A DNA stretch of 51,623 bases, taken from assembly GCF_003002815.1 (NCBI RefSeq), contig NZ_PVTF01000027.1, positions 1 to 51,623 on the forward strand. Reading direction: 5' to 3'. Shown in pieces: positions 18,231 to 51,424 of the stretch (position 1 is the stretch's first letter; the number at the start of each line of letters is the position of its first letter). The notes beneath the pieces were generated by a model. The model saw only the letters and a list, made by a program, of their open reading frames with translations, did not search any database and was not told where the DNA came from. Both the position numbers and the translations under genes were made by a program. The stretch is from Umezawaea tangerina (GTDB lineage: Bacteria; Actinomycetota; Actinomycetes; Mycobacteriales; Pseudonocardiaceae).

Positions 18231-18549
18231 GAAGCCCAGCCCCGGCGCGCGATTGTCTCAATGCCCGATCTTCGTTGTCAAGACGATAAAGCCATCTTGA
18301 CAACGAAGATCGGGCAGGAGGGTGCTGTGGATCGGGGGCAGAGGGGAAGTCTGGCTTCGCCAGCATCAGGCTTCGCCTGACCAAGCATCAGGCTTCGCCT
18401 GACCAAGCATCGAGCTTCGCTCGACAAGGCATCCTCGGCTGCGCCGTCGGACCAAGCATCCTCGCTTCGCGTCGGACAGGGCATCCTTGCTGCGCGGCGG
18501 ACAAGGCCCCAGGCGCTTCGCGCCGGATGCGCGCTGGCGGGCTGCGCCC
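18231..18549 (-). repeat. Composite repeat copy A: conserved flank, 22-bp inverted repeat and GNA mini-hairpin array
   Basis: Read on the minus strand, 18549-18351 holds about nine small hairpins with loops GAA or GCA closed by GC pairs, for example GGGCGCAGCCC, GGCGCGAAGCGCC, GAGCGAAGCTC, CAGGCGAAGCCTG (twice) and CTGGCGAAGCCAG. They are joined by linkers of the form ATGCYYKGTC. About 35 bases later comes the inverted repeat 18262-18316, then a flank with ATTGAGACAATCGCGCGCC. The element lies between convergent aroE and ptsH. Copies B and C have the same parts in the same order. The rest of the 18225-18686 gap holds the hairpin at 18630-18669. Confidence 0.85.
18262..18316. repeat. 22-bp perfect inverted repeat with 11-nt loop (copy A)
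   Basis: Arms 18262-18283 and 18295-18316 pair without mismatch. The inner end of the arms (TTGTCAAGA/TCTTGACAA) and the loop (TGGCTTTATCG on the minus strand) are shared with copies at 27612-27674 and 51337-51393, while the outer arm sequence differs and still pairs. Confidence 0.9.
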
Positions 18550-24378: not shown

Positions 24379-26988
<2,610 letters not shown>

Positions 26989-26995
26989 CCCCAGG

Positions 26996-27024
26996 CCCCG
27001 CGCCAGCCACCCACTGGCGCGGGG
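26996..27024 (+). terminator. GC-rich terminator-like hairpin after aroQ
   Basis: CCCCGCGCCAG (26996-27006) pairs with CTGGCGCGGGG (27014-27024) around a 7-nt loop, 8 bp after the aroQ stop. No T-run follows. Confidence 0.7.
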
Positions 27025-27063
27025 CACCACCACCCCACCCACAACACAAAGCACCCACCCGCT

Positions 27064-27700
27064 TTGTCCGGCGAAGCTCGGATGCCCTGTCCGACGCGCA
27101 GCGAGGATGCCCTGCCCGACGGCGGAGCCGAGGGTCCCCACGTTGGGCGCAGCCCGCCAGCGCACATCCGGCGCGGAGCGCCTGGGGCCGTGTCCGCCGC
27201 GAAGCAAGGATGCTTTGTCCAACGGCGAAGCCGAGGATTCCGGACAGGGCACAGCCCGCCACCTCGCCCCCGGCGCGGAGCGCCCGCCGCTTGGTCCGAC
27301 GCGCAGCGAGGATCCCCTGCCCAACGGCGAAGCCGACGGTCCCCACGCCAGCCCGCCAACGCGCATCCGGCGCGGAGCGCCCCACCGCCTTGTCCGACAG
27401 CGCAGCGACGATGCCCTGCCCAACGGCGAAGCCGAGGGTCCCCCCGCCGGGCGCAGCCCGCCACCCCCACCCGGCGCGGAGCGCCCGCCCGCCTTGTCCG
27501 CCGCGCAGCAAGGATGCCTGGTCCGACGGCGAAGCCGAGGATGCCCTGTCAGGCGCAGCCTGATGCCCCCGAAACCCACCCTTCCCCCAAGCACCCCGCC
27601 GAAAAACCATCTCTATGCCCACTCCTGCTTGTCAAGATAGCTTCACCGTCTTGACAAGCAGGAGTGGGCATAGAACACTCGGCGCCTGGGGTGCCCCCAC
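27064..27700 (+). repeat. Composite repeat copy B: GNA mini-hairpin array, 26-bp inverted repeat and flank
   Basis: The gap 26989-27725 has no gene. From 27064 to 27562 it holds about 18 small hairpins in a roughly 100-nt cycle repeated about five times: CGCGCAGCG, CGGCGAAGCCG, GGGCGCAGCCC and GGCGCGGAGCGCC, in that order with variants. The triloops read GCA, GAA or GGA, always G-N-A closed by GC pairs. The array ends at CAGGCGCAGCCTG (27550-27562). The inverted repeat follows at 27612-27674, then a diverged flank with GGCGCCTGGGG. The sense strand of aroQ carries the GNA loops, as in copy C after ggt. Confidence 0.85.
27612..27674. repeat. 26-bp perfect inverted repeat with 11-nt loop (copy B)
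   Basis: Arms 27612-27637 and 27649-27674 pair without mismatch. The loop TAGCTTCACCG differs by one base from the loop of copy C. Outer arm bases differ from copies A and C with compensating changes on both sides. Confidence 0.9.
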
Positions 27701-27725
27701 GCCCCCCACACCCCCAAGGCAACAG

Positions 27726-28139
27726 ATGAACCACGGCCTCCTCCACCACGTAGAACTCTGGGTACCCCACCTCACCCGAGCGGAGGACACCCTGGGGTGG
27801 CTCCTCCGCCAACTCGGCTGGTCCGAACACCAGCGCTGGGACGCCGGGATCAGCTGGCGCCTCGGCCCCACCTACATCGTCGTGGAGCAGTCCCCCGCCC
27901 TCACCGGCACAACCCACCACCGCACCAGTCCCGGCCTCAACCACCTAGCCCTGCACGTCAACCCCCGATCCACCCTCGACACCCTCACCGAGGCGGCCCA
28001 GCGCAACGGCTGGACCCTCCTGTTCCCCGACCGCCACCCCCACGCGGGCGGCCCCGACCACTACGCTGCCTACCTTGAGAACCACGACGGCTTCGAAATC
28101 GAACTAGTCGCCACCAGTGACGACACCAGTGCCGACTAG
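27726..28139 (+). CDS. VOC/glyoxalase-fold protein
   Basis: 137 aa from ATG 27726; an upstream in-frame extension would run into the inverted repeat and is rejected. It has HHVELWVPHLTRAEDTLGWLL at the start, PGLNHLALHV in the middle and GFEIELVA at the end, the paired beta-alpha-beta units of the vicinal oxygen chelate fold. Candidate metal ligands are the His at the start of the first strand, His in NHLALHV and Glu in EIEL. The substrate is unknown. It follows the repeat element and precedes the lipoprotein by about 150 bp. Confidence 0.75.
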   Translation: MNHGLLHHVELWVPHLTRAEDTLGWLLRQLGWSEHQRWDAGISWRLGPTYIVVEQSPALTGTTHHRTSPGLNHLALHVNPRSTLDTLTEAAQRNGWTLLFPDRHPHAGGPDHYAAYLENHDGFEIELVATSDDTSAD

Positions 28140-28166
28140 TCGCCTGGACGGGTGAACAACTCTCTA

Positions 28167-28263
28167 GACTGTCCCCGATTCGCCCACCGAAGACCGTCCC
28201 GGTCCGCCCGCCCAAGACCGTCCCGGTTCGCCCGCCGAAGACCGTCCCAGGTTCGCTCGCCGA
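28167..28263 (+). repeat. Four tandem copies of a 24-25 bp unit
   Basis: Units at 28167-28191, 28192-28215, 28216-28239 and 28240-28263, near consensus GACCGTCCCGGTTCGCCC plus GCCGAA. The tract ends 23 bp before the lipoprotein start codon, so it lies in its promoter or leader. Its unit length is a multiple of three, but the only frame across it lacks the codon bias of the neighbours. Confidence 0.85.
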
Positions 28264-28286
28264 TCGAGTGGAGGAACGTCCCCGCT

Positions 28287-29804
28287 ATGCCGAGGCCTCT
28301 CCGGCTCCTGGCGTTGGTCGCCGCAGCTGCCCTGCTGTCCTCGTGCAGCACCGGTGTCGCGATGACCCAGGCCGAGGGCACCGGCCCCATCGCCCCGCCG
28401 GTCGCACAGCAGCAGCAACAGCAGCAGAAGCGCACGCAACCCCCGGACGCGATCCCGCTCGCCTCCGACCGCGCCCGCGGCAGCGCGGGGGTCGTCGCGG
28501 CGGGTGGTGGTGACTCGCCCTACAACTACGGCCCCACGGTGCTGGTCGAGAACGGTCGCGACCGCATGTGGTGGTGCAGCCAGCTCGGTGTCGCGGTCCC
28601 CGCGGGCGACGACCTCCTGTACGCCGAGAGCGCGTCGCTGACCGGCCCGTTCGCCGCCCCCGACGGCTCGATGGCGCTGCCCGTGCTCAGCGGCAGCGTG
28701 AACGGGTTCGACGGGATGCACACCTGCGACCCGTCGGTCATCCACGTCGGCTCGACCTACTACCTCTACTACACCGGCGCGTCCGGCGAGCACGCGCACG
28801 GCAACGGGATCGGTATCGCGACCAGCGCGGACGGCATCTCGTGGCAGCGCGCGCACAACGGCCAGCCGATCATCGGGCCCGCGTACGACACGATCCGCGA
28901 CAACACCTACGGCGTCGGGCAGCCCGCCGCGCTGCACCTGGACGGCTGGTTCTACCTGATGTTCACCGACACCACCGGCCGCGCCGCGGGGTGGAACGGG
29001 GCGGGCCAGTTCGTGCTGCGGTCGAAGGACCCGCTGTTCCAGTCGGGCGTGCAGGCGTTGGGGGACAGGGGTTTCGCGACCGTGTCGGTCACCAACGCGC
29101 CGCGCGCCCGGTCCGTGGTCGACGCGTTCAGCGCGGACTGGATGTGGGTGGGGGCGCTGAACGCGTTCGCCATCGCCCACGAGACCGAGTCCGGCACCAG
29201 CATCACGTTCTGGAACTCCGACTTCACCGCCCAGCCGTACAAGCAGATCACCGTGCCCGGCCCGTGGCGCGAGGGGCCGGGGCTGGTGCGCACGTCCGAG
29301 GGCCACGCGCCGATCGCCACCGACGACCCGTGCGGTCGGGTGCCGGTCGACGTCGTCCGGGCCACCGTGGACGGCGCGGCGGGCGCGCCGACGGACCTGG
29401 CCCACTTCGGCATGGACCTCGCGGGCGTCCCCGGCTGCGCCTCCAAGGAGGCCGCGTCCGTGCTCGACGGCTTCGCCGTGCCGTCGCCGGAGCGCACGAT
29501 GGACCTCGTCCACGACGGCAAGGTCGTGCGGCTGGAACGGCGCTCGGTCACCGACCGGCTGGCGGGCGTCGTGCTCGACCGCCGTCCCGCGATCGTCGAC
29601 CAGCTCCCGGTCGTCGCGAACATCCCGTCCGGCGCGCAGGCGGTCCGCTCACCGGACGGCAAGGTCGGCGTGCTCCTGGACGGCGGCAAGGTGTGGCTCA
29701 TCGGCGACGAGTCCGTCGCCGCCCTGAACTCCTCGACGGTCAAGCAGGCCACCGCCCAGGAGTGGAAGTCCTACGACCAGGCGGGCGACCTGTCCCGCCG
29801 CTAG
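28287..29804 (+). CDS. Lipoprotein with GH43-like beta-propeller fold
   Basis: 505 aa. ATG 28287 follows GGAGGA by 11 bases. A lipobox LLSSC at residues 17-21 ends a short signal sequence, so the mature protein is anchored by Cys21. A Gln tract and a Pro/Thr-rich linker follow. Residues about 75-350 contain repeated blade-like units with aromatic Asp motifs (MHTCDPSVIHVGSTYYLYYT, DGISWQRAHNG, LDGWFYLMFTDTTGR) of the five-bladed propeller of GH43-like sugar hydrolases or binding proteins. The catalytic acids are not certain. The C-terminal 150 residues are unassigned. Surface sugar binding is likely, enzyme activity unproven. Confidence 0.7.
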   Translation: MPRPLRLLALVAAAALLSSCSTGVAMTQAEGTGPIAPPVAQQQQQQQKRTQPPDAIPLASDRARGSAGVVAAGGGDSPYNYGPTVLVENGRDRMWWCSQLGVAVPAGDDLLYAESASLTGPFAAPDGSMALPVLSGSVNGFDGMHTCDPSVIHVGSTYYLYYTGASGEHAHGNGIGIATSADGISWQRAHNGQPIIGPAYDTIRDNTYGVGQPAALHLDGWFYLMFTDTTGRAAGWNGAGQFVLRSKDPLFQSGVQALGDRGFATVSVTNAPRARSVVDAFSADWMWVGALNAFAIAHETESGTSITFWNSDFTAQPYKQITVPGPWREGPGLVRTSEGHAPIATDDPCGRVPVDVVRATVDGAAGAPTDLAHFGMDLAGVPGCASKEAASVLDGFAVPSPERTMDLVHDGKVVRLERRSVTDRLAGVVLDRRPAIVDQLPVVANIPSGAQAVRSPDGKVGVLLDGGKVWLIGDESVAALNSSTVKQATAQEWKSYDQAGDLSRR

Positions 29805-50807: not shown

Positions 50808-50904
50808 CCCACCCACCACACTCCCCACCCAACAAGGAGACCCAGCCACCCAACCGACACGTCCACCACCCACACCCAGCACGAACCGCCCACCACCATC
50901 CCAA

Positions 50905-51424
50905 CGCGCAGCGCGGATGCTTGGTCCGACGGCGAAGCCCAGGATGCCCAGTCCGACGCGCAGCGAGGATCCGTCGTTGGGCGAAGCCCGCCAACGCGCA
51001 CCCGGCGCGGAGCGCCCGCCCGCTTTGTCCGACGCGCAGCGAGGATCCGGCCACGGGCGCAGCCCGCCAGCGCGCATCCGGCGCGGAGCGCCTGGGGCCT
51101 TGTCGGCGCCAGCCGATGCCTGGTCCGACGCGCAGCGAGGATGCCCTGCCCGACGGCGGAGTCGAGGGTTCCCACGTTGGGCGTAGCCCGCCTGCGCGCT
51201 TCCGGCGCGGAGCGCCTGGGGCCCTATCGGCGCCAGCCGATGCCTTGTCCGACGCGCAGCGAGGATGCCTGTGTCAGGCGCAGCCTGATGCTGGCGAAGC
51301 CAGACCTCCTCCCGCCCCCGATAAACAGCGCCCTCCTGCCCCACCCCTGCTTGTCAAGACAGCTTCACCGTCTTGACAAGCAGGGGTGGGGCATTGAGAC
51401 AATCGCGCGCCGGGGGCCGGGCTT
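50905..51424 (+). repeat. Composite repeat copy C: GNA mini-hairpin array, 23-bp inverted repeat and flank
   Basis: The gap 50808-51472 has no gene. From 50905 to 51303 it holds about 16 small hairpins such as CGCGCAGCG, GGGCGAAGCCC, GGCGCGGAGCGCC and GGGCGTAGCCC; with GAA, GCA, GGA and GTA all four GNA loops occur. Two units (CGGCGCCAGCCG) have a GNNA-type tetraloop instead. The array ends CAGGCGCAGCCTG then CTGGCGAAGCCAG, as in copy A. The spacer GCCCCCGAT...ACAGC and the inverted repeat 51337-51393 follow, then ATTGAGACAATCGCGCGCC identical to copy A. Confidence 0.85.
51337..51393. repeat. 23-bp perfect inverted repeat with 11-nt loop (copy C)
   Basis: Arms 51337-51359 and 51371-51393 pair without mismatch around CAGCTTCACCG. 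Inner arm bases match copies A and B; outer bases differ with pairing preserved. Confidence 0.9.

Follow-up and report, generated by a model that had tools for sequence, protein, structure and literature searches.

REP sequences, BIMEs and REPINs are short palindromes with many clustered extragenic copies and a patchy distribution between species, and MITEs of the RU/ERIC type are palindromic intergenic repeats of ~100–300 nt that occur in tens to hundreds of copies. The repeat described here resembles both. Unlike the REP, BIME and REPIN sequences it has a ~105-nt core with a fixed tip and variable arms, a directional halo of substitutions around it, no Y1/RAYT protein and, in the copies read, no GTAG or CGTC tag noticed at the hairpin foot, and unlike MITEs its arms vary while their pairing stays almost perfect. 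A REP/RAYT system was considered and rejected, as PF01797 (Y1_Tnp) matched 3 of the 24 genomes searched and none of the 10 multi-copy genomes. The element is REP-like as a dispersed extragenic palindrome but was not filed there because the RAYT test failed. The attC sites of integrons are recognised by structure and are variable in sequence; here the conserved part is the tip, and no cassette array was noticed. Single-strand origins of actinomycete rolling-circle plasmids and AICEs include a hairpin near the att region of the RepSA element, whereas the present hairpin is amplified in the chromosome and has a halo.

In yeast, inverted repeats are reported to make flanking genes, even ones 8 kb off, mutate more via a translesion polymerase, an effect that thus reaches over kilobases (PMC3681665). 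That case is an effect of break repair at Alu or 1.3-kb repeats (PMC3681665), whereas here a bacterial hairpin of ~27 bp has the same strand sign on both sides and the substitutions are those of natural genomes. Template switching at quasipalindromes is described as creating and repairing perfect stems by copying one arm onto the other, with the arms staying complementary as their sequence changes (PMC8794818; PMC8604942). In our case the process would have acted at many dispersed copies, and template switching is not itself an element. Among the best-ranked titles and abstract beginnings, a coverage that lies outside most subscription journals, no description of the element or its halo was found. 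The core with its directional halo is the surprising part.

The window (the whole stretch of 51,623 nt that was analysed) contains, at 27064–27562 on the plus strand, an array of 18 GNA-triloop mini-hairpins with a cycle of ~103 nt (array B). The array is real: its 18 GC-GNA-GC hairpins compare with a mean of 0.98 and a maximum of 4 in 300 dinucleotide shuffles, the 14 with stems of ≥3 bp with a mean of 0.23 and a maximum of 2, and the 12 with stems of ≥4 bp with a mean of 0.05 and a maximum of 2. The minus strand of the same interval holds no GC-GNA-GC hairpin with a stem of ≥3 bp. Using Tandem Repeats Finder, we obtained a period of 103 nt in 4.5 copies, which bears out the higher-order cycle of about 100 nt described in the first-pass annotation. 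Its account of the units is right as well: the stems vary and the loops of all 18 hairpins read GAA, GCA or GGA. It had missed that array B runs on into a long hairpin at 27591–27694 and that two further units of array and hairpin lie in the window, at 18239–18546 (reversed) and 50904–51417. Elsewhere in the window, a 24-nt repeat (AGACCGTCCCGGTTCGCCCGCCGA) occurs four times at 28166–28263, upstream of a lipoprotein-like gene.

The array is the 5′ half of a composite oriented element whose 3′ half is the core hairpin. Core B (27591–27694, plus strand) has an outer stem GCACCCC/GGGGTGC, variable arms and the tip TTGTCAAGATAGCTTCACCGTCTTGACAA at 27629–27657; its stem is a perfect inverted repeat with 26-nt arms and an 11-nt spacer (27612–27674), and the RNA fold of 27550–27710 reaches −77.4 kcal/mol (z −10.6). 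Core A (18239–18339, minus strand) has 13-nt outer arms and its tip at 18275–18303, and is joined by 8 GC-GNA-GC mini-hairpins (array A, 18340–18546, minus strand). Core C (51314–51417, plus strand) has 14-nt outer arms and its tip at 51351–51379, with 14 such mini-hairpins at 50904–51309 (array C, plus strand). A promoter in the core (TTGACA ... GACAAT) was also considered; by eye its spacing is 18–19 nt, and the second box is missing in family A.

Within G000, the 10.68-Mb genome of the window, the tip pattern TTGTCAAGA-N11-TCTTGACAA has 174 copies and the reversed-pattern control none. Further copies of the array, which had been anticipated, are present in this genome and in one related genome. 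The 500 nt on the 5′ side of 62 cores (53 from G000 and 9 from G022) contain 389 plus-strand GNA hairpins with stems of ≥3 bp, against 2 on the minus strand. Of the 58 mini-hairpin clusters in the loci read, 57 adjoin a core, in one orientation throughout; the sole cluster without an adjoining core has 4 units (L092:2310–2475). Across 76 regions upstream of cores there are 354 perfect triloop hairpins with stems of ≥5 bp, against 60 in downstream control regions; 299 of the 354 are closed by a C-G pair and 270 have a GNA loop, an excess far above chance that agrees with the earlier claim.

GNA arrays were observed in these two genomes only. At five cores of G060 there are no GNA hairpins, and at 82 cores of the genome-contig scan there are 8 on the plus and 9 on the minus strand. 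Array length does not follow the strength of the flanking halo (rho −0.002 over 53 cores), and since the G060 cores without GNA arrays have halos too, the array is not needed for the halo. Tandem copies of a different unit (GGCGCCCGGCGACGCGAGGCGGGCCCACGAGACTTCCC) lie 5′ of the core in L135 (G112, genus g26), so that arrays recur on the same side, while tandem ~30-nt repeats (CCGGGCTTCCCACAGGTGGGAGGGCAGGG) lie on the 3′ side of the core at 10191 in L077. G060 also has close pairs of cores in opposite orientation, ~150–290 nt apart (C9:221971/222125, C12:132109/132282, C12:225129/225348 and C2:723429/723721).

Folding of the whole of array B is no better than that of shuffled sequence, as DNA or RNA and on either strand (z +0.72, −0.13, +2.28 and +0.34). 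The energy rules used probably give little or no bonus for GNA loops. GNA loops closed by two G-C pairs are reported to be very stable as DNA, with a Tm of 78°C for GCGAAGC (PMC4686876), in agreement with the stability asserted in the annotation. It had left open whether the folded form is DNA or RNA; DNA is favoured by the strand bias given above and by this reported stability (PMC4686876). Its proposal that selection acts on the folded array was not supported, as relatives of the element lack the array, array length is uncorrelated with the halo, and almost perfect pairing with so few wobbles can be produced by template switching in the absence of selection. The functional part, if there is one, is more likely the neighbouring core hairpin.

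In an alignment of 77 copies, collected by the tip pattern itself, the tip stem is nearly constant, while the next 13–17 pairs vary freely yet jointly. With gapped cells left out, 98.3% of the cells are paired and 292 are changed on both sides, against 81 in shuffles; none of 500 shuffles reached the covariation score of the core, so the covariation that the annotation had suggested looking for is there. Among 55 distinct G000 cores, counted after duplicate arm sequences had been dropped, 50 are fully Watson-Crick across 13 pairs and 44 distinct left arms occur; the 715 pairs comprise 708 Watson-Crick, 2 wobble and 5 other. The 1339 pairs of 103 cores in the genome-contig scan include 34 wobble pairs and 53 other mismatches. 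We stop short of treating the covariation as proof that the fold is selected, because G-U intermediates should leave wobble pairs and template switching need not. In five of the 21 G022 cores, however, the arms have one and the same imperfect pattern with an unrepaired mismatch; this and the mismatches of the genome-contig scan count against template-switch repair.

The exact tip TTGTCAAGA-N11-TCTTGACAA occurs in 2 of 297 genomes of the family, both of one genus (174 copies in G000, 40 in G022). A covariance-model survey with strict filters, in which no more than 26 candidates were scored per genome, turned up relatives in 18 of the 150 genomes surveyed from the family, which belong to 9 of 46 genera, and among 296 genomes of the class in one besides G000. 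A relaxed tip pattern matched at least 119 stretches, and Amycolatopsis, Umezawaea endophytica and Actinokineospora account for the 80 matches listed by name; the relaxed GGC-type tip had no match in viral contigs. No known Rfam family matched in the window. A carrier genome has either many copies or just one, and the lone copy then sits at one end of what looks like an integrative element.

A second tip type, TGTCAAGGC...GCCTTGACA, is absent from G000 and has 88 copies in G022 and 76 in G060, the first type being absent from G060. G000 has 9 copies along a 180-kb stretch; for 6 of them the corresponding gap in G022 also contains a core, oriented alike and always of the other tip type, so many copies are old. 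The arms differ too in the two orthologous pairs of G000 and G022 cores that were compared. As the tip types differ by genome though many positions are old, copies within one genome change in concert. At locus A of the window the G022 copy has the opposite orientation, and there four nearly identical 21-nt units form a recent-looking run. Presence of the element differs between the related species: G060 lacks it at two of the sites compared, and G000 also at two.

Eight genomes have one covariance-model match each (L155–L162). Their cores have a constant polarity relative to a downstream accessory gene, usually one with atypical third-position GC; in L161 this is an IS21-like transposase gene. 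Matches among the island cargo include SLFN_AlbA_2, GmrSD_N and HEPN, Apea HEPN and the Septu PtuA ATPase (PADLOC, E 6.8e-142), and three of the eight downstream proteins had no convincing match. We note a defence-like cargo slot in these apparent pSAM2-type elements. Att-like direct repeats of ≥25 nt flank 4 of the 7 islands examined, with the core ~180–280 nt inside one repeat in all four, and the two islands tested encode a pSAM2-type RepSA (E 8.3e-103 and 1.4e-48) and a tyrosine integrase. From RepSA, integrase and att-like repeats we infer that the islands are AICEs; the assignment concerns the islands alone. Flanking non-coding sequence is conserved, and CTTGATCCCATAGAGCC (≤2 mismatches) precedes the cargo in 7 of 8 islands; neither the window nor the 52 G000 loci of 20 kb contain a match to CTTGATCCCATAGAGCC. 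Plasmids gave no match to a 501-nt stretch of the L155 island. A single-strand origin of integrative elements, or a similar ssDNA signal of theirs, may have given rise to the core.

The plus strand around the 53 G000 cores has an excess of A and C and a shortage of G and T, at third codon positions as well as in intergenic DNA. Skews were calculated on the plus strand at third positions as (C−G)/(C+G) and (A−T)/(A+T). In plus-oriented genes 250–500 nt upstream they are +0.67/+0.91, against +0.05/+0.02 far away, and in minus-oriented genes <250 nt downstream +0.67/+0.88, against −0.09/+0.05; far skews are thus near zero, and the C/G skew differs in sign between plus- and minus-oriented genes. 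Plus-strand G at third positions drops from 0.455 to 0.147 upstream and from 0.515 to 0.130 downstream. The halo is oriented by strand, with the same sign in neighbouring genes of either orientation, and it fades by about 1.5–2.5 kb upstream and ~0.7 kb downstream. From this pooled extent, the halo of core B is expected at approximately 26100–28400 (plus strand), over the 3′ part of aroB, aroQ and a VOC-like gene; at this locus alone, no more than 230 near sites could be polarised. Gene calls came from a simple codon model, of which the polarised substitutions below are independent.

Taken singly, 49 of 53 G000 cores have a C/G skew above +0.15 and 4 one of 0.15 or less, the lowest being −0.24 (L094:9271); the four weak cores were retained in the pooled counts. 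The halo is also seen at 19 cores of G022 and 5 of G060. The 120 cores of the genome-contig scan show it less strongly; 38 of them were left out of the per-core skew and GNA counts because a locus end was too close. Six cores of G078/G140/G009 and 5 of G064/G145 have a weak halo or none, and at 6 cores of single-copy islands it is not clear. In 140 convergent gene pairs without a core the mean skews are small (+0.10 left, −0.04 right) and the left-right correlation is 0.27 (p 0.0016), compared to 0.76 in 31 pairs with a core; 11 of the 140 have a strong skew of the same sign, some of them holding the E2 repeat described below.

Derived changes were polarised on the plus strand with three genomes (G000, G022 and G060), and sites 100–800 nt from cores were compared with sites >3 kb away. 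Changes to A are raised most near cores (G>A ×5.65, C>A ×3.91, T>A ×3.91), followed by G>T (×2.7), A>C and A>T (both ×2.6), G>C (×2.4), T>C (×1.7) and T>G (×1.3). C>T is about flat (×1.04), and two changes to G are reduced (C>G ×0.68, A>G ×0.67). The general rise, which includes A>C, A>T and G>T, suggests that the rate is raised and that fixation alone would not account for the halo. The reduced C>G and A>G are not predicted by a purely mutational process and are predicted by selection against plus-strand G, which keeps selection alive as a cause. G>A plus G>C per G exceeds C>T plus C>G per C at 23 of 23 cores with data (25 were listed, two without alignable sites), several of which are orthologous pairs, so that these are not 23 independent cases.

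Dependence on the element itself is seen at two sites where it is present in G022 only. The G022 lineage has 45 and 46 G>A and 59 and 44 G>C changes there, against 3 and 1 G>A and 3 and 9 G>C in the G000 lineage. At the first of these sites the G000 lineage has the reverse trend (26 C>G, 13 A>G), and an older element may have been lost there or polarisation may be imperfect. The halo is thus shown to be an oriented, element-dependent change of the substitution spectrum. Replication direction was rejected as its cause, since cores 5 kb apart in the 180-kb stretch (12362, plus; 17364, minus) both show loss of G from the plus strand as defined by the core concerned; the two core orientations have skews of opposite sign (+0.67/+0.40 for plus and −0.32/−0.58 for minus cores). 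Break resection alone was rejected too, as it would give opposite signs on the two sides; the yeast precedent is break-based, which counts against the reading preferred below. An AID/APOBEC-like deamination was considered, and no neighbour preference beyond the baseline pattern was seen.

We read the array as a passenger of a dispersed extragenic palindrome whose plus strand is repeatedly removed and resynthesised, the arrays growing by slippage, and give this tentative reading a probability of about 0.42. The core hairpin would fold on the plus strand, which would be nicked or stalled there again and again by a hypothetical enzyme, removed over ~1 kb and remade with errors on the exposed minus strand, leaving the halo. 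The strong rise of changes to A would fit insertion of A opposite damaged bases. Short hairpins on the nascent plus strand might slip and duplicate, with the most stable DNA loop (GNA) winning, and we propose that this slippage would place arrays 5′ beside cores and GNA loops on the plus strand only. Intrastrand template switching would copy arm onto arm, so that stems could drift and yet stay paired.

A reading as a terminator or 3′-UTR element, in which core and array end transcription of the upstream gene, perhaps with Rho, and the A/C-rich flank is selected as RNA, appears unlikely, if the least so of the alternatives. It draws on the position of the cores: for 50 of 59 the gene upstream is directed towards the element (3 of the 62 lacked a called gene on both sides and were dropped), and in the G000 loci a core separates 32 of the 175 convergent gene pairs, 16 of the 594 tandem pairs and 2 of the 175 divergent pairs. 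These fractions are not genome-wide rates because loci were partly chosen for cores, and it is the contrast between orientations that counts; the convergent preference fits terminators and fits equally well insertion tolerated away from promoters. The strong fold of core B, the upstream gene co-oriented in 6 of 8 single-copy islands, and the loss of plus-strand G together with the reduction of new G point the same way. Selection on sense RNA alone is nevertheless insufficient, as the halo has one sign in genes on either strand, extends ~1.5 kb into neighbouring genes and raises C>A, A>C, A>T and G>T, a matter of rate as well as bias. Core stems have hardly any wobble pairs, orientation among tandem pairs is just 14 to 7, and long ordinary stems (16–20 bp) have no consistent oriented bias. 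By eye, no T run of an intrinsic terminator follows the core in the 77 aligned copies, and T is ~0.08 at 60–240 nt downstream. The location of all 59 cores outside called genes, along with the strand polarity, the hairpin excess over shuffles (18 against at most 4) and the 57 of 58 clusters beside cores, speaks against a decayed coding sequence or chance GC-rich hairpins, a reading we regard as hardly credible even though long ORFs cross the array; the region is not the decayed gene that the annotation had entertained.

We also doubt, somewhat more than for a terminator, that the element is a non-autonomous single-strand mobile element moved by a putative hairpin-recognising enzyme, with the halo as the trace of repeated plus-strand excision. 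Its presence and absence between related species, the 174, 40 and 0 copies of one tip type and the patchy distribution would suit such an element, whereas many copies are old, Y1_Tnp is missing from the multi-copy genomes, and no target-site duplication or fixed boundary was noticed by eye in four occupied/empty pairs and one partial pair, whose flanks have diverged. An sso-like initiation site on the chromosome, with a plus-strand hairpin predicted to prime minus-strand synthesis leftwards, seems improbable. The core lies just inside an att-like repeat in four islands and is co-oriented with RepSA and integrase in the two where these were identified, and the G/T-rich stretch of the minus strand reaches farther upstream than downstream; yet the halo extends downstream as well, and the islands themselves have no clear halo. 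Strand-specific removal and resynthesis remains the reading we prefer. If the halo is mutational, a ~105-nt repeat would locally reset the mutation spectrum of its neighbours, with an orientation set by the repeat and not by replication or gene direction, and the effect of natural hairpins on bacterial mutation could be tested in existing genomes. Covariation in such repeats would then be no proof of RNA function, and an origin of d(GCGNAGC)-type hairpin arrays would suggest itself. If the halo is selection, it would be synonymous-site selection of unusual reach.

A second dispersed hairpin repeat, E2 (L080:10788–10903), has the terminal inverted repeat GGTCGGCTTGACTTGGGG and the internal sequence GGGCAGGCTCTACCACCTGCCC. 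Its fold (z −7.8) consists of a bulged stem of 28 bp and, inside it, a stem that resembles a terminator, and short repeats lie 5′ of the hairpin at several copies. E2 occurs at ≥7 places in G000 and in the three genomes of the genus, the other three matches in 120 genomes being 27-nt pieces; a permissive Rfam search of L080:8300–11200 gave only sub-threshold miRNA models (best E 0.003). An oriented 700-nt skew above 0.2 is found at 9 of 11 E2 copies in the G000 loci and at 27 of 53 cores, with none opposite in either set. Given E2, the halo seems not to be private to one sequence. There could, more speculatively than for the reading of the array itself, be a class of bacterial hairpins that act as standing sites of strand-specific resynthesis, with at least two sequence-unrelated families in one genome, at which one strand would be repeatedly exposed over ~2 kb and the codon usage of neighbouring genes rewritten in a constant direction while the copy persists, mini-hairpin arrays arising as a by-product. 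Twelve of 56 skew peaks have no annotated element within 900 nt, some of them lying 0.9–1.3 kb from a core. What may be a third repeat, GTACGACATTTTCGG close to a hairpin of the GGGGGGTCC type, was noticed next to skewed gene ends at L062:17824–18045 and L098:17898–18453; it has five copies by pattern, with inconsistent orientation.
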